Origin: Halocatena pleomorpha | Lineage (GTDB): Archaea; Halobacteriota; Halobacteria; Halobacteriales; Haloarculaceae | NCBI RefSeq assembly: GCF_003862495.1 | Contig: NZ_RRCH01000029.1 | Location: forward strand, 1 to 64,000 | DNA length: 64,000 nucleotides | Direction: 5' to 3' | Shown: piece by piece, positions 42,335 through 64,000 of the stretch | Layout of the letters: every line of letters starts with the position of its first letter | Numbering within the stretch: the stretch's first letter is position 1 | Position numbers and translations under genes: made by a program | Notes under the pieces: model-generated | Seen by the model: the letters and a program-made list of their open reading frames with translations, nothing else | Told to the model about the DNA's origin: nothing | Databases searched by the model: none

Positions 42335-44146
42335 ATGACAGACAGTGCCGGACTCTCACGACGGGGGTTCCTCCAGGCGACGGCTGGTACAGCTGCCGCG
42401 ATGTCGCTGGCAGGTTGTATTGGCGGTGACGGCGGAGACGACGGAGGCGATGGCAGTGGCTCCAAAAAACCGCAAAAGGGCGGACGGTTGAACTTCATCA
42501 ACTCCACGATGGGTGGGTTCGATCCGGTCGCCAGCGACGGGACTGCCTCCGGACGGATCATCACACAGGTGTTCGATCCACTCGTCCACTACCCCCACGG
42601 GACGGTCGAGGCCGAGTCGTTGCTCGCGAAGAACTACGAGACCAACAACGACAAGACGGTGTACACATTTACGCTCAAAGAGGCCACGTTCCACAACGGC
42701 AATCCGGTGACGGCGAAGGACGTGGTGTACTCCTTTGAGCGGGTCGCTGGCTCGCCCCATTCGGTTCGGGCGGATTTCATCCTCAGTTCGATCGGCGTTA
42801 CCCACGAAACCGATTCGGACGGCAACTACGAACCAGGATCGTTGGGCGTGAAAGCGGTCGACGAGAAAACAGTGGAGGTAACGCTCGAACAGCCGTTCCA
42901 CTCCACGCTCGAAGTGCTGGCCTACGCCGCGTTCGCGATCGTTCCCGAGGGGGTCGTCGGCTCCCTGGAGGAAGAAGGCACATCGGAGAAACCGTCTAAG
43001 AAGTACACCAAATTCGCTGAGACGAATCCGATCGGTGCCGGCCCGTTCAAGTTCGACCACTGGAACAAACAGGAAGAAGCCGAAGTCGTTCGGTATGAAG
43101 ACTACCACGGCCAGACCGCCTACGTCGATGGCGTCCACTGGGCAGTCATCGAGGACGATTCGGCCAAACTCAACTACGCGATGGAGGGCAACGCCGACAT
43201 CTTCGAGATGCCCACGGCGGAGTACGATCCCGGTGGCGTTTCGGTCGACAACACCGACGACAAGAAACGCGAAACGGGAACGTACAAACACACCAATGGC
43301 GAGGAATTCGACTACCTGAAAGTACCCGAGGTCGCCACGCGCTACATCGCGTTCAACACGTCGAACGTGCCCAAACCCGTCCGCCAAGCAATCGCGTACA
43401 TCTTCAACACCGAAACGTACGTGAAGCAGGTGCTTAAGAACCGCCAGACGCCGACATACCACCTCACTCCGTCGCTCATCTATCCCGGCGGACCAGACGC
43501 TGCGGACAAACACGCCAAGAAGAACTACCCCTACAGTCCCGGCAAAAACGACGCCGAGAGTGCGAAAAAGGTGATGGAGAAGGCGGGATACGGTGAGAAC
43601 AACCGCTACCAGCTGAACTTCACCCATTACCAAGATAAGGCGTTCGCAAGCCTCGCGAAGAATCTCCAACAGCGCACCGGACAGGCGTACATCGATCTGT
43701 CGGCACAAGCGGCCGACTTCCAGACGCTCCAACAGCGCGGAGAGAACGGAACGAACGAGTTGTACTCGCTGGGGTGGATCGCTGACTGGCCCCGGCCGGA
43801 TAACTTCCTGAAACTGCTGTACCCGCCGAACACCCACACCGGCGATCCGGCAGCGTACACGTATCTTAACTGGGGCCGTGACTCATCGACCAAGGCCTCC
43901 AAAAAGGCGAAAAGCGCCTTCGAGAAGGTCCAGAACAACCTCGGCCCGAGCGACGCAGCACGGAAAACGCGGGAAAAAGCGTACATCCAGATGGAAGAAG
44001 CCAATTGGGAGGACGCGGTACTCATTCCGACCAACGCCATCGCCACCGAATACTTCAGCTACCAGAAAGTTCATATTCAGAACAAGTTTGGTGGGATGGG
44101 TGTTTCACGGAGCATGTACAACACGATTTGGAAAGAACAGAAGTAA
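42335..44146 (+). CDS. ABC transporter substrate-binding lipoprotein (peptide type, family 5)
   Basis: 603 aa. Tat signal SRRGFLQATAG with lipobox SLAGC (Cys near 28), then a Gly/Asp linker, so it is anchored outside the membrane. The SBP family 5 pattern is seen in FDPLVHYPHGTVEAESLLAKNYE, TFTLKEATFHNGNPVTAKDVVYSFERV, and TNPIGAGPFKFDHW. It binds oligo- or dipeptides (or similar solutes such as nickel chelates) for the permeases encoded next. First gene of a six-gene operon. Confidence 0.92.
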   Translation: MTDSAGLSRRGFLQATAGTAAAMSLAGCIGGDGGDDGGDGSGSKKPQKGGRLNFINSTMGGFDPVASDGTASGRIITQVFDPLVHYPHGTVEAESLLAKNYETNNDKTVYTFTLKEATFHNGNPVTAKDVVYSFERVAGSPHSVRADFILSSIGVTHETDSDGNYEPGSLGVKAVDEKTVEVTLEQPFHSTLEVLAYAAFAIVPEGVVGSLEEEGTSEKPSKKYTKFAETNPIGAGPFKFDHWNKQEEAEVVRYEDYHGQTAYVDGVHWAVIEDDSAKLNYAMEGNADIFEMPTAEYDPGGVSVDNTDDKKRETGTYKHTNGEEFDYLKVPEVATRYIAFNTSNVPKPVRQAIAYIFNTETYVKQVLKNRQTPTYHLTPSLIYPGGPDAADKHAKKNYPYSPGKNDAESAKKVMEKAGYGENNRYQLNFTHYQDKAFASLAKNLQQRTGQAYIDLSAQAADFQTLQQRGENGTNELYSLGWIADWPRPDNFLKLLYPPNTHTGDPAAYTYLNWGRDSSTKASKKAKSAFEKVQNNLGPSDAARKTREKAYIQMEEANWEDAVLIPTNAIATEYFSYQKVHIQNKFGGMGVSRSMYNTIWKEQK

Positions 44147-44268
44147 TCGGACGAGAACAGTCGCTTTTCGCTGTGTCAGCGATCATCCAAAGGAAAGAGA
44201 TATTTGCCTCAAACAGAAACGCAAAGTATGTCATCAATGTATCAATACAGAACGAGCGGTGAGCGACC

Positions 44269-45315
44269 GTGAGCCGGTGGCAGTATTTCCTCCGGCGGGT
44301 GGTGCTCGCCGTGCCAGTGGTGTTTTTCGCCATGTCGCTCGTGTTCCTCGTGATCCGGGCGGGACCGAGGGATCCGGTCGCGGCGGCGCTCGGACAGAAC
44401 CAGAATCCGGAGATTGCCCACCGGATGCGGGTCCAGATGGGTATCATCAACCCCGACGGGACGCCAGTACCGCTGTGGGAACAGTACATCGACTTTATGA
44501 CCGATCTTGTGACGTTGAGTCTCGGTCAGACGTGGGTGATCAATCGGGGCGCGTCGGTACTTGATCTGATCATCGCCCGCGCACCAATCACGATCTGGCT
44601 CGGTTTTTGGTCGGTGTTGATCGCACTGCTCATCGGGATCCCCTTGGGATTTTACGCGGGATTGCGACCGAACACGTTCCCTGATTATTTCGCCTCGTTC
44701 GGCGGAATCGTCTGGCGCGCGATGCCGAATTTCTGGCTCGCCATCATCCTTTCGAGTGTTCTCGTCAGTTCAGAGGGGTTGACCGAGGACCTGATCGGCG
44801 TTCCGCTCTCTTGGAGTGATTTCCTCATCGAGACAGACGTGATCGGGACAGCGAGTCTTGCGAACTTGGGCGATCCAGTCTCACTGATCGCCGCGGTCAA
44901 GTGGATTTTGCCGCCCGCGATCGTGTTGGGTTCGGCCTCGATGGGCAACGAGATGCGGATCGGTCGGACCGCTGTACTCGAAACCATCAACTCCGCTTAC
45001 GTCGAAACCGCCCGCGCCAAGGGACTAGGTCGTCGAGTGATCGTCTGGAAGCACGTGTTCCGCAACGCGTTGATCCCATTGGTGCCCGTCATTTCGAGCG
45101 AGGCGTTCGTGCTGATCGGGGGATCGGTGCTCGTGGAAACCGTCTTTGCGATCAATGGGCTGGGGAAGCTCACGTTCGATGCGGTCAAACAGGGCGATCT
45201 CGCGCTCGCGGGTGGGCTGTTGTTCGTCTTCGCCATCTTCCTCCAGATCGTGAACATCGTCCAAGATCTGTTGTATACGCTGATCGATCCACGAATCGGG
45301 TATGATCAATCATGA
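44269..45315 (+). CDS. ABC permease, DppB type
   Basis: 348-aa permease with about six spans; start GTG 44269 (V/M-SRWQYFLRRVVLAVPVVFFAM) is the typical DppB N-terminus. The EAA loop is seen as YVETARAKGLGRRVIVWKHVFRNALIPLV, which contacts the ATPases. It follows the binding-protein gene after 122 bp and overlaps the DppC-type gene by ATGA. Confidence 0.92.
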   Translation: MSRWQYFLRRVVLAVPVVFFAMSLVFLVIRAGPRDPVAAALGQNQNPEIAHRMRVQMGIINPDGTPVPLWEQYIDFMTDLVTLSLGQTWVINRGASVLDLIIARAPITIWLGFWSVLIALLIGIPLGFYAGLRPNTFPDYFASFGGIVWRAMPNFWLAIILSSVLVSSEGLTEDLIGVPLSWSDFLIETDVIGTASLANLGDPVSLIAAVKWILPPAIVLGSASMGNEMRIGRTAVLETINSAYVETARAKGLGRRVIVWKHVFRNALIPLVPVISSEAFVLIGGSVLVETVFAINGLGKLTFDAVKQGDLALAGGLLFVFAIFLQIVNIVQDLLYTLIDPRIGYDQS

Positions 45316-46811
45316 GTGAAACTGCTACTACGGAACTGCCGTTCAGAGAGCGACTCCGAGAGAATCCTCGTCCAGCGCTGCTCTGGGTGGGTGTATTAGG
45401 TGTACTGCTCGCGCTCGAAATCGGAGCGATCACTTCGGTGGCCGTCACGGTCGTATCAGGATTAGCTGGTGCTGTCGCCAGTGCTGCCGCCGCGGTGCTG
45501 GGTGGGCCAGTAGTGCCCTCAATCGGTGGGGCTATCGACGGTGCGCTCACGAGTGCGGCCCACGTGGCCGATGGATTGCCATCGCTGTTGTCCCGTGATG
45601 TGATCCCGAACCAAGGGTATCAAACGCCGGACGGCACGTGGCACGGGACGTTCCTCGGACTCGAACCCAAATACGCGTGGTTGCTCCGACTCGTGCTCGT
45701 GTACGCCTACATGTTCGCCTTCCTGTGGTGGTGTTGGCGGGGCTACCGCGTTTACGTCCGCCACTATCGGTTTGCGGACTGGACGCCCCGAGACGACATG
45801 GTCGACCGGCTTCGCACCCACCGATGGGGCCAGTTCGGGTTCGTCGTAGTGTTGCTGTTCGTCGGCATGGCGTTGTTCGCGCCGGCAATCAGCCCGACTT
45901 CTGCCGACCAGAACATCTACCATACGAGTCAGTACGACGTTCAATACTACGACGCCGACACCGAGAGCGTCGAAACGATAGCAGTGCTCGATGCGAACCT
46001 CGATAGCGCTTCCCGAGGAGCAGGGACGACCAACATCGGTCCGTGGCAGTACGACCAGTACGACCGGTTCCATCCCTTTGGCACGATGTCCAATCCTGGG
46101 CAGGATCTCTTTACCTTCATGGCGTACGGCGCTCGGATCTCGCTCGCCATCGGTCTCATCGCCATCGGTGTGAGCGTCGTGTTGGCCGGCGGCTTTTCGA
46201 TGCTCACCGCCTACTACAAGGGATTGGTCGATCTGTCGGTGGTGTTTGTCAGCGACTCGATCCAGTCGCTGCCGGGGATCTTGCTGTTGCTCCTCGTCGT
46301 GGCGGTGTTTCAGAGTCACTGGCTCTGGGAGATCTACAACGGCGGGCTGTTGCTCGCGCTCGCCTTCGGCGTGGTGTACTGGCCGGGGCTGTGGCGAGCG
46401 GTCCGTGGTCCGGCGCTTCAGGTGGCCGAACAGGAATGGGTCGACGCCGCAAAGAGCTACGGACAGCGATCGGTAACGACGATGCGAAAGCACATGTTGC
46501 CGTATCTCCTGAGCTACCTCCTGATCTACGGCTCGATGTCGCTCGGCGGCGTCATCATCGGTATAGCGGGACTGTCGTTTTTGGGTCTTGGTATTGATCC
46601 ACCGACGCCGGAGTGGGGACGAGCCATCAATACGGGACAGGACTACGTTACGACCCCTGCGTGGCACATCTCACTTATTCCCGGCATCCTCATCGTGATC
46701 GTTGTCACGGGATTCAACGCGCTGGGTGACGGCATCCGAGACGCGATGGATCCTGAAAGCGAGGGTGAAGACGCGGGTGCCGGTGCGACCGCTAGTGGTG
46801 GGGGTGCATAA
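45312..46811 (+). CDS. ABC permease, DppC type, with long N-terminal extension
   Basis: 499 aa, against about 300 for bacterial DppC. The C-terminal 260 residues are standard: TFMAYGARISLAIGLIAIGVSVVLAGG, SIQSLPGILLLLLVV and the EAA loop EWVDAAKSYGQRSVTTMRKHMLPY. The N-terminal half adds about three membrane segments (ALLWVGVLGVLLALEIGAIT, LVLVYAYMFAFLWWCWRGY, FVVVLLFVGMALFAPAIS) and an extracytoplasmic loop. Pairs with the DppB-type permease. Confidence 0.9.
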   Translation: MSETATTELPFRERLRENPRPALLWVGVLGVLLALEIGAITSVAVTVVSGLAGAVASAAAAVLGGPVVPSIGGAIDGALTSAAHVADGLPSLLSRDVIPNQGYQTPDGTWHGTFLGLEPKYAWLLRLVLVYAYMFAFLWWCWRGYRVYVRHYRFADWTPRDDMVDRLRTHRWGQFGFVVVLLFVGMALFAPAISPTSADQNIYHTSQYDVQYYDADTESVETIAVLDANLDSASRGAGTTNIGPWQYDQYDRFHPFGTMSNPGQDLFTFMAYGARISLAIGLIAIGVSVVLAGGFSMLTAYYKGLVDLSVVFVSDSIQSLPGILLLLLVVAVFQSHWLWEIYNGGLLLALAFGVVYWPGLWRAVRGPALQVAEQEWVDAAKSYGQRSVTTMRKHMLPYLLSYLLIYGSMSLGGVIIGIAGLSFLGLGIDPPTPEWGRAINTGQDYVTTPAWHISLIPGILIVIVVTGFNALGDGIRDAMDPESEGEDAGAGATASGGGA

Positions 46812-46813
46812 CC

Positions 46814-48181
46814 ATGAGTATGCATTCACATTCACCGGCGTCGGTCGACCGGACTGATGACGCGCTGTTGACCGTCGAGAACCTCCAGACATCGTTTTTC
46901 ACGGACAAGGAGACGATCCGAGCGGTTGACTCGATCAGCTTCGAGATCGATCGGGGCGAGACCGTCGGAATCGTCGGTGAGTCTGGGTCTGGAAAGAGCG
47001 TGACGGCCCGGTCGATCATGGGTTTGATCGACGCTCCCGGTCGTGTGGTCGGCGGCAGCGTCCGGTTCAACGACGCTGAGACCGTCGAGCGCCTCGCACG
47101 GCAGTATCCTGACCGGACGATCGACGTAGACGAGCTTCGCACTGAACACGATGTCGCGGACTGTATCGAGCAGTTGCTCGAACAGGGGGTTTCCCCCGCG
47201 AAACTCACCGACGGCGAGCAGGATCGATCCGATGTCGATCCCGTCGAACTCGCGCGCGAAGACATCGTTACGATGCGCGATCTCGTCGAACGTCGGTTCA
47301 CCGACGAACTCGGAATCACTGAGAAGAGCGCGTTCGTCGTGCGCGATACCGACGGCGGATACGTCGATGCGACGCACGCCTCCGAAGACGCGTTCCGGAA
47401 GCTTCGGGGACGGGGGATCTCAATGATCTTCCAGGATCCGCTCACGTCGCTGAATCCGGTGTACACCGTCGGCAACCAGATCAAAGAGGCGATCCGTCTT
47501 CATCAGGGATTGCAGGGCACCGAAGCCCACGAGGAAGCTATCAGACTTCTCGAAGCCGTCTCGATCCCTGACGCACACCGCCGTGTCGATGAGTATCCAC
47601 ACGAGTTCTCGGGCGGGATGCGCCAGCGTGCAGTCATCGCCATGGCGTTGGCGTGCAAACCCGAGTTGCTTATTTGCGACGAACCGACCACGGCGTTGGA
47701 CGTGACGATTCAGGCCCAGATCCTCGAACTCCTAATGGAGATCCAAGACGACCGTGACCTAGCGATCATGTTCATTACCCACGATATGGGTGTGATCGCG
47801 GAGATCGCTGACCAAGTGAACGTGATGTATGCGGGCGAACTCGTGGAAAAAGCGCCTGTCGGGGCGCTGTTCGACGCGCCGAAACACCCCTACACCCAGG
47901 GGCTGCTTGAGTCGATTCCGGGGCGTCATCCCGAAGAAGACCGACTCAGAACCATCGAGGGCGATGTGCCGACACCAAACGAACAGCCGACGTACTGTCG
48001 GTTCGCACCCCGGTGTCCTGAGGCGTTCGACGCCTGTGAGGTGGTTCATCCCGAGAACGTCGGTGTGGGCGATGCGGAACACACCGCTGCGTGTCTGCTT
48101 TATCCCGAGGAACTACCCACAGACGAAGCGCTCGAACAGCACCGGTCACTCGGAGCGACCGACGGAGGTGATCAACGATGA
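46814..48181 (+). CDS. ABC ATPase, DppD type, with large insertion
   Basis: 455 aa. Walker A GESGSGKS at 55-62, Q-loop [11 protein letters not shown] near 205, signature [15 protein letters not shown], Walker [16 protein letters not shown]-loop FITHDMG, and the C-terminal oligopeptide-transport Cys cluster ([15 protein letters not shown]). About 100 extra residues (roughly 90-192) lie between Walker A and the Q-loop, acidic and helical in appearance, which standard DppD proteins lack. It overlaps the next ATPase by ATGA. Confidence 0.92.
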
Positions 48182-49806
48182 GCGAGGAGCTACTCACCGA
48201 ATCACGACAGACGACGGCCGAGCCGCTCGTTGAGGTCAACGGATTGAAGACGTACTACGACACCGGCGGGATGCTCGGTTCCCAGCCTGTCAAGGCCGTT
48301 GACGGCGTCGACTTCTCGATCGCGCGCGGCGAGACACTCGGATTGGTTGGCGAATCGGGCTGTGGAAAGACGACGCTCGGACGGACGCTCGTTCAGCTCG
48401 AAACCGCCACTGATGGAGAAGTGTTGTTCGATGGGCGTGATGTGACAACCCTTTCCGGGTCGGAGCTGAAGAAGTGGCGGCGCAACGCCCAGATCGTCTT
48501 TCAGGACCCTGAATCTAGCCTCAACAGCCGGATGACTGTGGGAGAGATCATCCGCGAACCGCTCGATGTCCACGGCTGGCCCAACTTCACTGTCGCTGTC
48601 GACGATCCACAGGACCGATCCGTGAGTCTTTCTGGCGACGGCACGCTCACAGACGACGACCAGGCCGATATCACCGTCGCTGTCGGAGACGATGATCAGA
48701 CCGTAGCGGTACGGGAGGGGATTCCGATGGACGAGTCCGCTGTGAAGGTATCGACCACCGAACGCGGATCATCCGTGACGGTGTCGCTGTCGGTCGGCGT
48801 CTCTAAATCCCGCCTTCGTCGTGCACGCGTCCGAGAGCTGTTGAAGACGGTGGGACTCCAGGAAGAACACTACTACCGGTATCCACACCAGTTTTCCGGT
48901 GGACAACGACAACGCGTCGGTATCGCTCGCTCACTCGCGCTCGAACCGGAGTTCGTCGTTCTCGACGAACCAGTGAGCGCGCTTGATGTCTCAGTTCAGG
49001 CAAAGGTACTGAATCTACTCGAAGATCTCCAAGAACAGTTCGGGCTGACGTATCTGTTCATCGCTCACGACCTTTCCGTCGTCCGCCACATCTGTGATCG
49101 GGTCGCCGTGATGTATCTCGGTCACATCATGGAGATTGGAGAGACAGAAGAGCTATTCCAGAACCCGAAAAACCCCTACACCTACTCGTTGCTGTCGGCA
49201 ATTCCGGACCCAGATCCCGAGACGACCCGCGAGCGCGTCACACTCCGGGGAACGCCACCCAGTCCTCGAAATCCGCCATCGGGCTGTCCGTTCAGCACGC
49301 GGTGTCCAGTAAAGATCCGGCCGACAGAGTACAGGGATATCGACGAACAGACCTGGGAAGGAATCGAACTTTTGGGCGACATCCTCCGAAACCGCGAGCA
49401 GCAGAGCGTCGGGGTTCGTGAGCGTGCAAAGCGGCTCTTGGGGTTGGAGACGGGCTTCGATGACATCGTGGATGTCGTCGAAGAGGTGTTCATGCCTGAG
49501 ACCGTCGAGACGGAGCAATCGGCTGCTGAGAGATCGATGGCCGACGACGAACGACTCGAAGCCGCGTTGTCCGACGTGCCAGCCACTGTCAAAACCCACA
49601 TCGAGACGGCCGTCGAACTCATCGAAGCCGGCGACGAATCACAGGCACACCAGCTGTTGACAGACGAATTCGGCTCGGTTTGTGAACACGAATCTCCAGA
49701 ACACCACCCTGTGAGCGACACGGGCCGCGCGAGCTACTGTCACCGTCACCGATCAGAGTACGACGAGCCAGAGCCGGTGTTCGACAGCCATCTGGATCAC
49801 GACTGA
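48178..49806 (+). CDS. ABC ATPase, DppF type, with insertion and C-terminal extension
   Basis: 542 aa, well above the usual 320-350. Walker A GESGCGKT at 58-65, Q-loop [14 protein letters not shown] near 106, signature [15 protein letters not shown] near 239, Walker [15 protein letters not shown]. Two additions stand out: an acidic beta-rich segment at about 134-210 ([26 protein letters not shown]) before the signature helix, and about 150 residues after the usual CPFSTRCP, before a late C...CHRH tail. Cys/His spacing in the tail suggests the normal metal-type cluster has been split by the insertion. Confidence 0.9.
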
Positions 49807-58186: not shown

Positions 58187-58834
58187 ATGTACAACAAGCG
58201 CACGTTTGGAAAGGGAATGGGTGCATCGATCGGACTACTGGCTGTGATTGCGTTACTCATCATTTCTACGGGGTCTGCGTATGCCGTTCCGCTCGCCGGT
58301 ATCGGTGGGTTCACGATTCAGGCAGACCAGCTCACTGCTGAGTCGGCGTATATCTATCCAGGAGTCGATGACACCAGCAATCAAGACGCCTATCCGATGG
58401 CAGTGATTGAGCAGAAAGACGTCAAAATTGATGGGATGAAGCTCATGAAGTCGCTCGATGTGAGCGCGGTGCCCGGACTCAGCGGTAGTGCTCGGGTCGT
58501 GATGACATCTAGTGACACTGTAACAGCAGATCAGCAGATGGTCAAGGTGAGCAACATCGAAGCCGACACCGCGGAGTTCAACCAGCAGGTTATCGACGAG
58601 TCCAACTCGAACAACCCATCAGACCAGTTCGGCATCTGGGCGGGTGACGCGTCGAAGAATCAGGACAAGCTTCAGGATGGAAAGATTGTCGACATTAGTG
58701 GCGATGGCCCGGCTCAGAAGCTACAAGGAGCAAACATCAAGGCGCACTACCTTGCGTCTAGTTCGATCAGCATTCCAGGTCTGAGCCTGCAAGTCCAGTA
58801 CGACCAAGACGGTGACGGTCAGTACAACGAGTAG
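58187..58834 (+). CDS. Secreted or membrane-anchored protein resembling DUF6230
   Basis: 215 aa from ATG 58187. Basic N-terminus (MYNKRTFGKGMG), then one hydrophobic segment (SIGLLAVIALLIISTGSAYA) that is a signal peptide or anchor. The mature part is beta-rich and Ser/Asp/Gln-rich: GIGGFTIQADQLTAES, LMKSLDVSAVPGLSGSARVV, DQFGIWAGDASKNQDKLQDG and a closing SISIPGLSLQVQYD. The order of elements resembles actinobacterial DUF6230 proteins, which sit beside DUF6114 membrane proteins, as here. The family call is by eye; function unknown. First gene of a three-gene set. Confidence 0.6.
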   Translation: MYNKRTFGKGMGASIGLLAVIALLIISTGSAYAVPLAGIGGFTIQADQLTAESAYIYPGVDDTSNQDAYPMAVIEQKDVKIDGMKLMKSLDVSAVPGLSGSARVVMTSSDTVTADQQMVKVSNIEADTAEFNQQVIDESNSNNPSDQFGIWAGDASKNQDKLQDGKIVDISGDGPAQKLQGANIKAHYLASSSISIPGLSLQVQYDQDGDGQYNE

Positions 58835-58903
58835 TTGGTAGGGCCTGCCAACTTCCGTTAGAACAGCATCACAGCGATCATGATAAATACAACCTATGGA
58901 TTC

Positions 58904-59368
58904 ATGAGCGACCGACGACAACGACTCGAACAGTGGCGCCAGCGTCGTCCGGTGCTCGGTGGCGTGTTCTTGCTTCTCGGGAGCGTGTTCATGTTTTATG
59001 TACCGATGTTCATCGCAAAGGACACGATTTTCATCGGGGGCAACACGGTCGCCTACATCGGACTAGTGAACGCTTCGTTCATCTTCTTGATCGGGGTGTT
59101 TTCCCTAACGAAGCCGGAGTACTCCACGATACTCGGTTACGCCGGTGTCGTGTTTTCGTTTACTTCATTGATGGGGACGCTTGGGGGATTGCTTATCGGG
59201 ATGATATTCTCGCTCATCGGGTCGAATCTCTGTATTGCGTGGGAGTCTGAGCTGGTCGAAGAGAACAGTCCGTTCAGTTGGAACGGCAGCACGGACGTGG
59301 ATTCAGATTCGAACGATGAGGACGCTGAGGACATGGGCGTTTCCGGGCTCGTGAATAAGTGGCGATAA
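58904..59368 (+). CDS. DUF6114-like membrane protein
   Basis: 154 aa from ATG 58904 (MSDRRQRLEQWRQRRPVLGG). The RRPVLGGVFLLLGSVFMFYVP start, then FIFLIGVFSLTKPEYSTILG and LMGTLGGLLIGMIFSLIGSNLCIAW give four spans; the sequence of a short basic helix, WRxRRPxxGG and the late GGLLIGMxxxxxGxxLxxAW pattern matches DUF6114. A 35-residue acidic tail follows. An ATG at 58880 is in frame but less family-like. It lies 69 bp after the DUF6230-like gene and 2 bp before the next one. Confidence 0.65.
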   Translation: MSDRRQRLEQWRQRRPVLGGVFLLLGSVFMFYVPMFIAKDTIFIGGNTVAYIGLVNASFIFLIGVFSLTKPEYSTILGYAGVVFSFTSLMGTLGGLLIGMIFSLIGSNLCIAWESELVEENSPFSWNGSTDVDSDSNDEDAEDMGVSGLVNKWR

Positions 59369-59370
59369 AA

Positions 59371-60459
59371 ATGTCGATGGACAGCTTAAAACGACGAATC
59401 CGGTCGGTCGGGCCGCTCCGCGCCGCGCTTGCGTGTGGATTTTCGCTATTACTCGTTACGAGTGGAAGTCTCGTGTTCGTCACGTCGGCCCAAGAATCGC
59501 CTGATGGTGTCGATGACCGCGCGACGTTCACTGTTCGAACGGGCTCGATTCACCCGGATATAGCAGATGCCGGACAGATCTGTGCGGAGAAAATCGAACC
59601 CGACGTGAACAAGGTCACAGTCTCCGATTCGACATTGAAAGACGTCGATATTTATGTCGGAAAGGAAGGGAGTATCGAGTCCCATATCAGCTTCCCAACG
59701 GGGGACGTGAGCGGGAATCTCGTCTTGTACACGAACGGCGAGAATCCGCTGGTCAACACACTAGCGACGCTCGGCATTTGTCTCCCGCCGGGGGTACCGA
59801 ACCCGTTGCCGACGACGCTCAAAGCCTACTGGCTCGGTGTCGACAACTTAGAGACGGATGGGCTTTCGATCTCGTCTGGCGGTGAACCACCGAGCGTCGG
59901 TGGCCCAGAACTCTCGGACGTTCTTGCGGAGACGAACACGTCCAAATCTGAACTCGGGATCAACAACTCTACTGAAACGAACACCACCAACGAGACGCTG
60001 ACTAACGTCACGAACACCACCAACGAGACGCTGACTAACGTCACGAACACCACCAACGAGACGCTGACTAACGTCACGAACACCACCAACGAGACGCTGA
60101 CTAACGTCACAAACACCACTAATGAGACGCTAACCAACGTCACGAACACCACTAACGAGACGCTGACTAACGTCACGAATGAGACGACAGCAGTAGAATC
60201 AGGGACGAATGACACGGCAACGCCGACAGCAACAGACGCACAGTCTGAGGCTGTCAGTCAGGGGACCGACGTTCAGGCAGAGTCGCTCCAGAACACCCCT
60301 GACCGAACCGATCGGAACACCTCCGAACCAGATGCGACTGAAACCGAGGCAGACGCGCCAGAATCACCGTCTATTCCGACCGGAACACCCCAGCCGACGA
60401 CGACTGATGATGAAGATGACGGAATCCTGTCTGGCATACTGGGACCGTTGTTCAGCTAA
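59371..60459 (+). CDS. Secreted sequon-rich repeat protein
   Basis: 362 aa from ATG 59371. N-terminal basic region and hydrophobic core (LRAALACGFSLLLVTSGSLVF) end at about TSAQE, a Sec-type signal. Residues about 50-180 form a compact beta-rich domain (TFTVRTGSIHPDIADAG, SDSTLKDVDIYVGKEGS, GNLVLYTNGENP) with three Cys. Then six copies of an 11-residue unit NTTNETLTNVT at 204-269, each carrying three N-glycosylation sequons, and a Thr/Glu/Asp-rich tail ending DDGILSGILGPLFS. No enzymatic motif. It is 2 bp after the DUF6114-like gene, so probably the third member of one operon; surface-exposed and probably heavily N-glycosylated (inference). Confidence 0.75.
   Translation: MSMDSLKRRIRSVGPLRAALACGFSLLLVTSGSLVFVTSAQESPDGVDDRATFTVRTGSIHPDIADAGQICAEKIEPDVNKVTVSDSTLKDVDIYVGKEGSIESHISFPTGDVSGNLVLYTNGENPLVNTLATLGICLPPGVPNPLPTTLKAYWLGVDNLETDGLSISSGGEPPSVGGPELSDVLAETNTSKSELGINNSTETNTTNETLTNVTNTTNETLTNVTNTTNETLTNVTNTTNETLTNVTNTTNETLTNVTNTTNETLTNVTNETTAVESGTNDTATPTATDAQSEAVSQGTDVQAESLQNTPDRTDRNTSEPDATETEADAPESPSIPTGTPQPTTTDDEDDGILSGILGPLFS
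59980..60177 (+). repeat. Six tandem 33-bp repeats encoding NTTNETLTNVT
   Basis: Six contiguous in-frame 33-bp units. Units 1-3 are identical at DNA level; unit 4 differs at one base, unit 5 at five and unit 6 at one, every difference synonymous, so the peptide unit is exactly conserved. Each unit holds the sequons NTT, NET and NVT. Confidence 0.95.
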
Positions 60460-60542: not shown

Positions 60543-61487
60543 ATGACGGACAACATCACTGCTGAGACGATGGATATCGAACGCGCCCAAACGGTGGCGC
60601 GGCGCGTGATCGAAAACGTAGAGCAGGTGATCGTCGGGCAACACGAGGCCGTGGAACATCTCGTCACATCGGTGTTGGCAGGGGGAAACGTTCTACTTGA
60701 AGACATCCCAGGAGTGGGTAAGACGATGCTCGCTCGGTCGATCGCTCGGTCGGTCGATGGCCGATTCAAACGGATTCAATTCACACCGGATCTCCTCCCG
60801 AGCGACATCACTGGCGCGAACGTGTTCAATCAGAAAACGCAGGAATTCGAGTTCCGCAACGGACCGATCTTTGCGAACGTGGTCCTTGGGGACGAGATCA
60901 ATCGCGCGCCTCCCAAAACACAGAGTGCGCTGTTAGAGGCGATGGATGAGGGACAAGTCACTGTCGACGGCGAGACGCATCCGGTCCCATCGCCGTTTAC
61001 CGTCATCGCCACGCAGAACTCCGTCGAAGACGATCAAACGTACTCGCTGCCCCTAGCCGAGATCGATCGCTTCATGAAACGTCTCCATCTGGGGTATCCC
61101 GATGAACACGAAGAAACCGAACTGTTGGGGCGAGTCACCGGCGAACATCCGATCGAGTCGCTGTCTTCGGTTGCCACCATCGACGACATACAGACGGCAC
61201 GACGCGCCGTCTCGAACGTTCGAGTGGAGGACGCTATCCGGCAGTACGTCACCCGACTCGCGCGGTACACGCGGGATCACGCACAGCCGGGTGCGAGTCC
61301 ACGAGGATCGGTCGCGCTGCTCCACGCGGCTCAGGCCCGAGCAGTACTCGATCAACGGGGGTACGTGATTCCGGAAGATGTTCAACAGGAAATACGTTCG
61401 GTTTTTACCCACCGGATCAGACCAGTACCGAGTGGCGACGCGCCAGCCTCTATCGTTACCGCTGCGCTCGAATCCGTCGACGTATGA
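60543..61487 (+). CDS. MoxR-family AAA+ ATPase
   Basis: 314 aa. Walker A DIPGVGKT near residue 56, then FKRIQFTPDLLPSDITG, Walker B LGDEINRAPPKTQSALLEAMDEGQVTVDG, sensor IATQNSVEDDQTYSLPLAEIDRF and a C-terminal helical lid with GASPRGSVALLHAAQARA. MoxR ATPases act as chaperones maturing VWA- or DUF58-protein complexes. The start overlaps nothing upstream; the downstream DUF58 gene overlaps by ATGA. Confidence 0.93.
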   Translation: MTDNITAETMDIERAQTVARRVIENVEQVIVGQHEAVEHLVTSVLAGGNVLLEDIPGVGKTMLARSIARSVDGRFKRIQFTPDLLPSDITGANVFNQKTQEFEFRNGPIFANVVLGDEINRAPPKTQSALLEAMDEGQVTVDGETHPVPSPFTVIATQNSVEDDQTYSLPLAEIDRFMKRLHLGYPDEHEETELLGRVTGEHPIESLSSVATIDDIQTARRAVSNVRVEDAIRQYVTRLARYTRDHAQPGASPRGSVALLHAAQARAVLDQRGYVIPEDVQQEIRSVFTHRIRPVPSGDAPASIVTAALESVDV

Positions 61488-62503
61488 ATCTGACACGACG
61501 CGGAGCTGTAGTCGTGGCTGCTGCCGTTGTTGGGGTGATACTTGGGGCGTCGTTCGGTGCCCGTTCGCTCGATGTCGTTGTCGTTCCGGCGGTTGCCGTG
61601 CTCGCGTTTGCCCTCGGTCAGGTCACATTGGCCGATCGGCCGACGGTCGAACGGACGAGTACCGAACCGGGAATGCCGGGGGACACTCGCACGATTGGCC
61701 TACAGATCGAGACGGACGCGATGGCAACGGTCACGGATCGGATCGACGGCGTCAGTCCGGAGACTGTTGAGATGGCCGTCAGTGACGACGGATCGGTCGA
61801 GTACGACGTGACGTTCATCCGTCGAGGCGTCCATTCGGTCGGGCCGCTTTCGGTCACCGTGTGCGATCCTCTCGGATTAGTCACTGAGCGATACCAGTAC
61901 ACCGATTTCGATCCGATACTCGTCTACCCTGATATTCACCAAATCGCCGCAACGGATGTGTTCGCCACCCTCACAGGCGGGGACGGAGTGCCCGAACGCC
62001 AAGAGTTTCAAGGGCTTCGGGAGTACACGCCGGGCGAATCGCTCCGCAATGTCCATTGGAAAACGAGCGCCAAACAGCAGGACCTTTTCGTCGTCGAACA
62101 CACGCGAGAGAGCGAGTCCAGCGTTTCGGTCGTCGCTGAATCGCTCAGCGGAGCGGAAAACGCCGACGCAATGGCGCGTGCGGCCGCAAGCATCGTCTGT
62201 TTTCTACTCAGAAACGGCGTCAACGTGGGGTTGACAGTTCCAAACAGTCGCCTCGAACACACACAGACCACAACTCGACAGTCGGTCCTTGAATTCTTCG
62301 CAAAAGCCACGTCGGGACGCGTTCCGACTGCTCGCACTGAATCAGCCGACGTCTGCGTACGCGGTGAACGCGGCCACGCAGTCGTGGAGATCGACGGTCA
62401 CCAGATTCCATTCGACCGATTGGTCGACTACCGTCACTCCGGGCGCCGATCGAGCGAACCGGCATTACACGCCGTGGACACGACACCGGGTGGTAACTCG
62501 TGA
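61484..62503 (+). CDS. DUF58 protein
   Basis: 339 aa. Two N-terminal membrane spans (VVVAAAVVGVILGASFGARS; VVVPAVAVLAFALGQVTL), a beta domain, and the DUF58 signature EFQGLREYTPGESLRNVHWKTSAKQQDLFVVEH, followed by a VWA-like part (VSVVAESLSGAENADAMARAAAS). DUF58 proteins are regular partners of MoxR ATPases and transglutaminase-domain membrane proteins. It overlaps both neighbours by four bases. Confidence 0.92.
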   Translation: MNLTRRGAVVVAAAVVGVILGASFGARSLDVVVVPAVAVLAFALGQVTLADRPTVERTSTEPGMPGDTRTIGLQIETDAMATVTDRIDGVSPETVEMAVSDDGSVEYDVTFIRRGVHSVGPLSVTVCDPLGLVTERYQYTDFDPILVYPDIHQIAATDVFATLTGGDGVPERQEFQGLREYTPGESLRNVHWKTSAKQQDLFVVEHTRESESSVSVVAESLSGAENADAMARAAASIVCFLLRNGVNVGLTVPNSRLEHTQTTTRQSVLEFFAKATSGRVPTARTESADVCVRGERGHAVVEIDGHQIPFDRLVDYRHSGRRSSEPALHAVDTTPGGNS

Positions 62504-64000
62504 CGACTGTTACTGACAGACTCGACCACGATCGGATACCGTGGCCATGGCTGTGTTCGCTGGCTGCTCTAGCGGTTATGAGTATATCCTACCTCTGGGT
62601 GTTGTATCGGGCGGTCGATATCGACGGCGATCCGGACTTGTTTTTTCTGGTCGTCTGTGGGGCGCTCGTTACCGGACTCCTCCTCGGTCGGTTCGTGGGT
62701 CCCGTAGTCGCGTATCTCTGTGTCGGTCTGCTCGCAGCTGGGGGAACCATGCTGTACGCATCCACCATACCGAACGGCTATTCGATCATCCTCTCTATCG
62801 ACGCGTTCCAGACAGACATCGTGGCGTTGCTCACGGGACTGTCGATCATCCAGATCATCAATGCAGGTGTTTGGGCCACGGCCGTCGCTCCCGTTCCAGT
62901 GTTTCTCACCGCGTATTTCACCGCCCGCCACCGCTACGGTCAAGCGACGTTCGTCGGCTGTCTGGCGCTCGGATTCTTGATTCTTACCGGAGACGTAAAC
63001 ACGACGATCGGTCTCATCGGTGTGCTCGGTGCCACAGCAGCGGTCGGGTTCGGGGATCTCGCGCGCCACAACACCGATCTCTCGGGGGCGAGTGCGCTCC
63101 TTGTCGTGCTCGCGGTGATCGTCGTACTCACGTCATCTCTCAGCCTCGTTCCTGGCGGAGAAAGCACCCCGATACTCGGCGGATCCGACGGGGATCGAGC
63201 GCAAACGGTCGAAGGCAGTCTCACACGCGCCGATTCACAGCTTTCGATACAAGGCTCGATCAGCCTCGATCCCGAAGTGCGGTTCTCGATCGAAAGCGAC
63301 CGGGAAGCGTACTGGCGCGTCGGTGCCTACGACCGGTACACCGGCACAGGATGGGTACGGACGGCCGACGATCGGTCGTACAACGGGTCTCTCTCGAAAC
63401 CGCCAGGAACGACTGACACTGTTCGCCAGCGAGTTCGCGCCGAATCGTCAATCTCGACCATGCCGGCGGCGTGGAAACCGATCTCCGTCGAGAATCGATC
63501 CCCACGGGTGACGGGCTTCGATGGATTGCAACCGTCCGAACAGCTCGACGCTGGAGACAGCTACACGGTTACCAGTGCTGTGCTGCGGACTGAGCCTGCT
63601 GTGCTCCGCAACGCGAGCACCGGCTACCCCGACGGCCTCCGACAGCGGTACACCCAACTCCCGGACAGTACGCCCGACCGGGTCGACGCGTACACCGATC
63701 GCGTGACCGCAAACGCTGACAACAGCTACGACACGGCACGGGTTATTGAACGCCACCTCCAGAAGAACTGGAACTATTCGCTCGACGTGCAGCGCCCGGA
63801 CAAACACGTCGCCAACAATTTCCTGTTCGAGATGGAACGAGGCTACTGCACCTACTTCGCAACGACGATGGTCACGATGTTGCGCACCCAAGGGATCCCG
63901 ACTCGACTCGCGGTCGGGTATGCGCCGGGGGAATCAGTCGACGGAAACCGGTGGGTCGTCCGCGGTCTCGACTCGCACGCGTGGGTCGAGGTGTATTTCC
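62500..64000 (+). CDS. Transglutaminase-domain membrane protein (TgpA-like), right end cut
   Basis: The first 500 codons are visible, from GTG 62500 (V/M-TTVTDRLDHDRIPWPW). About six membrane spans occupy residues 15-205 (for example LCSLAALAVMSISYLWVLYRAV, ASALLVVLAVIVVLTSS). A large extracytoplasmic region follows: FSIESDREAYWRVGAYDRYTGTGWVR and, near the window edge, the transglutaminase core with catalytic Cys in MERGYCTYFATTMVTMLR and His in LDSHAWVEVYF. The catalytic Asp lies beyond the window. Third gene of the MoxR-DUF58-TgpA operon (GTGA overlap). Confidence 0.9.
   Translation, partial: MTTVTDRLDHDRIPWPWLCSLAALAVMSISYLWVLYRAVDIDGDPDLFFLVVCGALVTGLLLGRFVGPVVAYLCVGLLAAGGTMLYASTIPNGYSIILSIDAFQTDIVALLTGLSIIQIINAGVWATAVAPVPVFLTAYFTARHRYGQATFVGCLALGFLILTGDVNTTIGLIGVLGATAAVGFGDLARHNTDLSGASALLVVLAVIVVLTSSLSLVPGGESTPILGGSDGDRAQTVEGSLTRADSQLSIQGSISLDPEVRFSIESDREAYWRVGAYDRYTGTGWVRTADDRSYNGSLSKPPGTTDTVRQRVRAESSISTMPAAWKPISVENRSPRVTGFDGLQPSEQLDAGDSYTVTSAVLRTEPAVLRNASTGYPDGLRQRYTQLPDSTPDRVDAYTDRVTANADNSYDTARVIERHLQKNWNYSLDVQRPDKHVANNFLFEMERGYCTYFATTMVTMLRTQGIPTRLAVGYAPGESVDGNRWVVRGLDSHAWVEVYF

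Follow-up and report, generated by a model that had tools for sequence, protein, structure and literature searches.

The window analysed here is the whole stretch of 64,000 nucleotides from contig NZ_RRCH01000029.1 of Halocatena pleomorpha. Three closely spaced plus-strand genes, as announced in the preliminary description, were found near its end, at 58187..58834 (gene A, 215 aa), 58904..59368 (gene B, 154 aa) and 59371..60459 (gene C, 362 aa). Gene A comes first and is separated from gene B by 69 bp; the start of gene C lies 2 nt past the stop codon of gene B, for which an alternative ATG at 58880 is also possible. Two membrane proteins are encoded upstream on the same strand: P0005 (56677..57150), which is DUF5518-like (PF17647, below cut-off), and P0004 (57276..57815), a multi-span protein without a Pfam family. 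Downstream, at 60543..63999 (+), Pfam matches and gene order identify a MoxR AAA ATPase, a DUF58 protein and a TgpA/transglutaminase protein, the set running off the window.

The first gene had been described as DUF6230-like and the second as DUF6114-like, and a search of both proteins against the family models gave significant matches. Gene A reached 33.8 bits with PF19741 (DUF6230; hmmscan, E 4.8e-8, Pfam cut-off 27.5), and gene B reached 80.1 bits with PF19609 (DUF6114; E 2.2e-22, cut-off 27.9) over model positions 2-106 of 106. Gene A is thus a remote member of its family, as Actinomadura proteins score up to 185 bits. A translated scan of the window's own genome with PF19741 missed gene A, although the protein passes in hmmscan; therefore, genomes were surveyed for gene A by alignment instead.

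Hydropathy analysis of the gene A product revealed a hydrophobic helix at residues 10-28, followed by a cleavage-like site (AYA33|V34, in the context AYA|VP). The stretch around this signal site, GxAxAxPxxGxGGF, is the most conserved part of gene A proteins. The body past the signal segment is an all-beta core in the AlphaFold2 model, which was built with 20 homologues and has a pLDDT of 80.4, mostly above 90 in the beta core. Unlike Streptomyces-type DUF6230 proteins, haloarchaeal A lacks their cysteines.

For the gene B product, hydropathy indicated two clear hydrophobic spans and a broad third stretch (residues 83-111), which is compatible with four spans. The spans are rich in glycine and end in LCIAW, after which an acidic C-terminal tail follows. 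Invariant glycines and the terminal AW motif are visible in the DUF6114 alignment that includes gene B.

The gene C product consists of a signal peptide, a two-cysteine beta-rich domain of about 130 residues in which C71 and C137 are invariant, a repeat tail, and a hydrophobic C-terminal end, GILSGILGPLFS. No meaningful family match was found for it in Pfam and NCBIfam. The AlphaFold2 model of its domain is poor (pLDDT 55), and a PDB search started from this model is without meaning. Within the tail, a 33-bp unit (11 aa, TNETLTNVTNT) is repeated 6.2 times in tandem at 59977..60179 (+), with a lag-11 autocorrelation of z = 10.6, and most of the sequons are found here. All 24 sequons of the protein are located in the tail and none in the two-cysteine domain. 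Shuffled tails contained 8.5 +/- 2.2 sequons, with a maximum of 16 in 2000 shuffles, which bears out the earlier view that the third protein is glycan-ready. The tails of orthologous C proteins differ in sequence, yet every tail tested had more sequons than the mean of its shuffles. The window's genome also encodes an STT3/AglB-type oligosaccharyltransferase (E 1.5e-24). Judged from these sequence features, the repeat tail of the gene C product probably carries N-glycans. In being exported and acidic and in carrying a Thr/Asn-rich sequon tail, it is like S-layer and other surface glycoproteins of haloarchaea, but it matches no S-layer family, and its long hydrophilic tail closes with a short hydrophobic stretch.

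An 11-residue period recurs in tails that look unrelated, namely those of most haloarchaeal C proteins and of a single third protein from Bacilli, with z values of 9-15 at lag 11 in the C tails of L051, L054, L070 and L107 and in gene 5 of the Bacilli locus L200. We rejected this repeat as a feature of all lineages: it is missing in Natrinema altunense-type tails and not significant in Actinomycetes. The hydrophobic segment encoded at 60420-60459 of the window stands out in an otherwise hydrophilic tail, and similar segments occur in third-protein tails elsewhere; Streptomyces-type third proteins, for example, have GNLLTDIGDAITGIFTGG-like hydrophobic segments, so that these tails seem similar across lineages.

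We then come to the distribution of the three genes among 292 Halobacteria genomes. Gene B scored above cut-off in 32 of them, and gene A was present in exactly the same 32. By chance such a coincidence would have a probability of about 1e-43, or about 1e-14 when counted by genus (13 of 77), values that assume independent genomes and serve as a guide only. Among these genomes are members of Natrinema, Halorientalis, Halomarina and Haladaptatus, and in the window's own genus gene A was present in all seven genomes examined (69-94% identity). Most haloarchaeal B copies (54 of 62) are preceded by an A gene in the same orientation, no more than 2.3 kb away; the other eight, without A nearby, all come from Halorientalis-type genomes. 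Strong matches to C were found in 16 genomes, all within the 32 that have A and B, for which chance gives about 1e-17, or about 1e-6 by genus (again assuming independent genomes and as a guide only). In all 16, C lies directly 3' of B, starting 44-272 bp past the B match. Chance as the cause of the A-B-C arrangement is excluded because the neighbourhood survey shows its recurrence. The expectation that the three genes co-occur in Halobacteria was therefore borne out in that C always lies beside B and within A-B genomes, of which only half (16 of the 32) have C.

The set also varies in its architecture. In L053, L055, L056 and L065, an A-like domain is fused behind DUF6114. In Halorientalis (L101, L102, L103), DUF6230 is followed by long PKD-like repeat arrays, and each genome has several extra DUF6114 copies. 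L086 and L087 (genomes G286 and G218) have tandem arrays of five or six DUF6230 genes, divergent in sequence, ahead of just one DUF6114 gene.

The genes upstream of A may belong to the set as well. Strong homologues of P0004 were detected in 22 genomes, all 22 inside the 32 A-B genomes, although they do not always adjoin A-B, and one Halorientalis-type protein of 668 aa consists of three P0004-like units followed by DUF6114. From this co-inheritance and fusion, P0004 is probably a further, fourth component of the A-B-C set. In 22 of 54 haloarchaeal loci, a homologue of P0005 is encoded at most 1.3 kb away on the same strand, and in Natrinema-type loci it follows C by 3 bp; by its position, P0005 may be a fifth component. 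The MoxR-DUF58-TgpA genes were found to be kept downstream of A-B-C in the window's genus only and not elsewhere. The three-gene module of the preliminary description thus holds insofar as its genes co-occur, but it was drawn too narrowly: fusions or different partners are found elsewhere, P0004 probably belongs to it, and P0005 may.

The pair had been regarded as known mainly from actinobacteria, a view that our survey does not support: among the genomes sampled, DUF6114 passed its cut-off in 49 of 247 from Actinomycetes and 24 of 200 from Bacilli, beside the 32 of 292 in Halobacteria. In Actinomycetes the same families occur in the same order and on the same strand as in haloarchaea, with A just upstream of B in 24 of 24 loci (at about 0.55-0.83 kb in nearly all of them). 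An outer domain, D, unrelated in sequence to haloarchaeal C, is fused behind DUF6114 in 8 of these 24 loci; in 5 it is secreted as a protein of its own, which has a Pro/Ser/Ala-rich stretch. Counts of bacterial third proteins are partly circular, since some of the proteins counted had gone into the models, yet L205 and L201 lie outside the training sets and were matched by the third-protein models.

In Bacilli, A was found near B in 16 of 16 loci inspected, and the third proteins are remote relatives of DUF6230 (HHalign 96-98%), often with low-complexity tails. The Alicyclobacillus/Tuberibacillus-type sets resemble the haloarchaeal one in that A and B are neighbours, usually with a third secreted protein that has a low-complexity or coiled tail. 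However, their third proteins are DUF6230 relatives, some of them with a C-terminal HPr domain, and haloarchaeal C is not such a relative. We compared C with A (HHalign probability 8.1%) and with the bacterial third proteins of types T, S and D (0.8-6.5%), and rejected homology to any of them at the sensitivity of HHalign (no value above 8.1%). In the DUF6114 tree, which has about 109 columns and is indicative only, all haloarchaeal sequences cluster together (SH-aLRT 92) beside one Bacilli set, of the Alicyclobacillus/Tuberibacillus type, as their nearest bacterial relatives, and the Actinomycete sequences group with another Bacilli set. At its C-terminus, a DUF6230 copy of Tuberibacillus calidus (L111:5529-6311) has LPDTA, then a membrane span and RKR, an arrangement that resembles a cell-wall sortase signal.

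The observed family matches, gene order and co-inheritance, the excess of sequons, and the fusions of A-like or other outer domains to DUF6114 suggest that A, B and C form one expression unit for a complex of the cell envelope, with B as its base and A and C outside (probability roughly 0.6). We infer that the three proteins bind one another physically, and propose the following topology, glycosylation, anchoring and end function. A and C would be exported via Sec and end up outside the membrane, where the tail of C would be glycosylated. B would stay in the membrane as the base that holds or assembles A (and C), rather than act as a transporter. An anchor is favoured over a transporter because, where A-like domains or D are fused to DUF6114, a single polypeptide contains both the exported domain and the membrane part. 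P0004, and perhaps P0005, would be membrane accessories. The end function would be a surface structure or adhesion rather than catalysis; a surface role is favoured because of the PKD-like arrays on A in Halorientalis and the sortase-like tail on A in Tuberibacillus. Counting against an envelope complex are the absence of C from half of the haloarchaeal A-B genomes, its lack of a detectable relation to A or any of the third proteins from bacteria, the poor model of C, and the eight of 62 B copies that lack A nearby.

A more speculative extension, which we consider possible but rather doubtful, is that DUF6230-DUF6114 represents an unrecognised envelope complex common to Actinomycetes, Bacilli and Halobacteria, located on the surface of hyphae or spores in those haloarchaea that form hyphae. 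The plan would be the same throughout, namely a secreted beta protein, a membrane base and, as the third part, an exported protein whose long tail is of low complexity; unrelated proteins would have taken the place of this third part in different lineages.

Alternatively, the module may have its role in the growth of hyphae or in sporulation, which would account for its occurrence in Streptomyces, spore-forming Bacilli and hyphae-forming haloarchaea. Strain YIM 93972 (Actinoarchaeum halophilum) is a haloarchaeon described as forming hyphae and spores (PMC10067837). Genome G183 of the window's genus is this strain, so the window comes from a hyphae- and spore-forming clade (Halocatena and relatives), in whose genus gene A was present in every genome examined. 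The window also contains a five-gene oligopeptide ABC transporter operon (42335-49806) with 66-78% identity to its orthologue at 2,532,235-2,539,703 in YIM 93972, which there lies about 9 kb upstream of A; the A-B-C genes of that strain are at 2,549,122-2,551,299 on its major chromosome. The operon very probably corresponds to ORF_2669-2673, by which hyphae were restored in a bldK mutant of Streptomyces, and its likely position close to A speaks for a hyphal role. However, Natrinema, Halorientalis, Halomarina and Haladaptatus are, to our knowledge, not known to form hyphae, and since A-B occurs in them too, the pair is not specific to hyphal growth and a role limited to hyphae or spores is disfavoured, although it may contribute there. 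We consider this explanation unlikely.

A could also be a lipid carrier or groove protein, with B moving lipids across or along the membrane. In its favour, the model of A has long strands with an alternating hydrophobic pattern, and A is always paired with a membrane protein. On the other hand, a Foldseek search of the model against the PDB and a viral library returned no match at E <= 0.001, lipid-transfer folds included, and no ATPase recurs with the A-B pair outside the window's genus. Lipid transport by A and B is therefore quite unlikely in our view.

The name 'cholesterol esterase' raises the question of whether A is a secreted lipid or sterol esterase, with B and C as accessories. Actinomycete proteins annotated in this way are presumably DUF6230 members, and the published actinomycete esterase family may be DUF6230. 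Haloarchaea are not known to make cholesterol esters, which speaks against such an enzyme. The name is used in Streptomyces papers, and a novel actinomycete cholesterol esterase family was reported (Xiang et al. 2007, as cited in PMC4098958). The Streptomyces protein possibly shares its family with A; no annotated names for DUF6230 were obtained from plasmid records. In the wider family, however, no catalytic residue is conserved. Among 20 diverse A proteins, the columns conserved to at least 75% comprise G, A, P, F, Y, K, R, I and L, and none of them is Ser, His, Asp, Glu or Cys; the conserved Ser-His-Asp/Glu of an esterase is thus missing, and a catalytic role of A is disfavoured for this reason. 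The tandem copies and PKD fusions also suit a structural protein better, which makes an esterase distinctly improbable. That A, B and C merely travel together on a mobile or selfish island, without a joint function, would fit their patchy distribution (13 of 77 genera) but is very improbable given that no mobile genes recur beside them in the loci inspected, that haloarchaeal DUF6114 forms a single group, and that fusions and the 2-nt spacing between B and C occur.

Returning to the envelope complex, DUF6230 and DUF6114 are known by name only, and their combination with C and P0004 in haloarchaea is new. In 5.39 million open papers, DUF6230 is mentioned once, in passing, and DUF6114 never; nor did we find a description of a three-part envelope plan shared by three distant groups, which is put forward here. 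Two families of no known function are thus inseparable in Halobacteria and have recurrent extra partners in three distant groups, so that A-B-C can be approached as a testable unit rather than as isolated unknown genes. As the clade is described as forming hyphae and spores, its published transcriptome and proteome could show whether the module changes with differentiation.

A last observation concerns two Bacilli loci (L203:5871-6962 and L204:6916-8082), in which a PTS HPr-like domain (E 1e-12 and 7e-16, respectively) forms the C-terminal end of a third protein that appears to be exported. Such a domain is odd for a secreted protein, and its phosphorylation-site histidine looks replaced.
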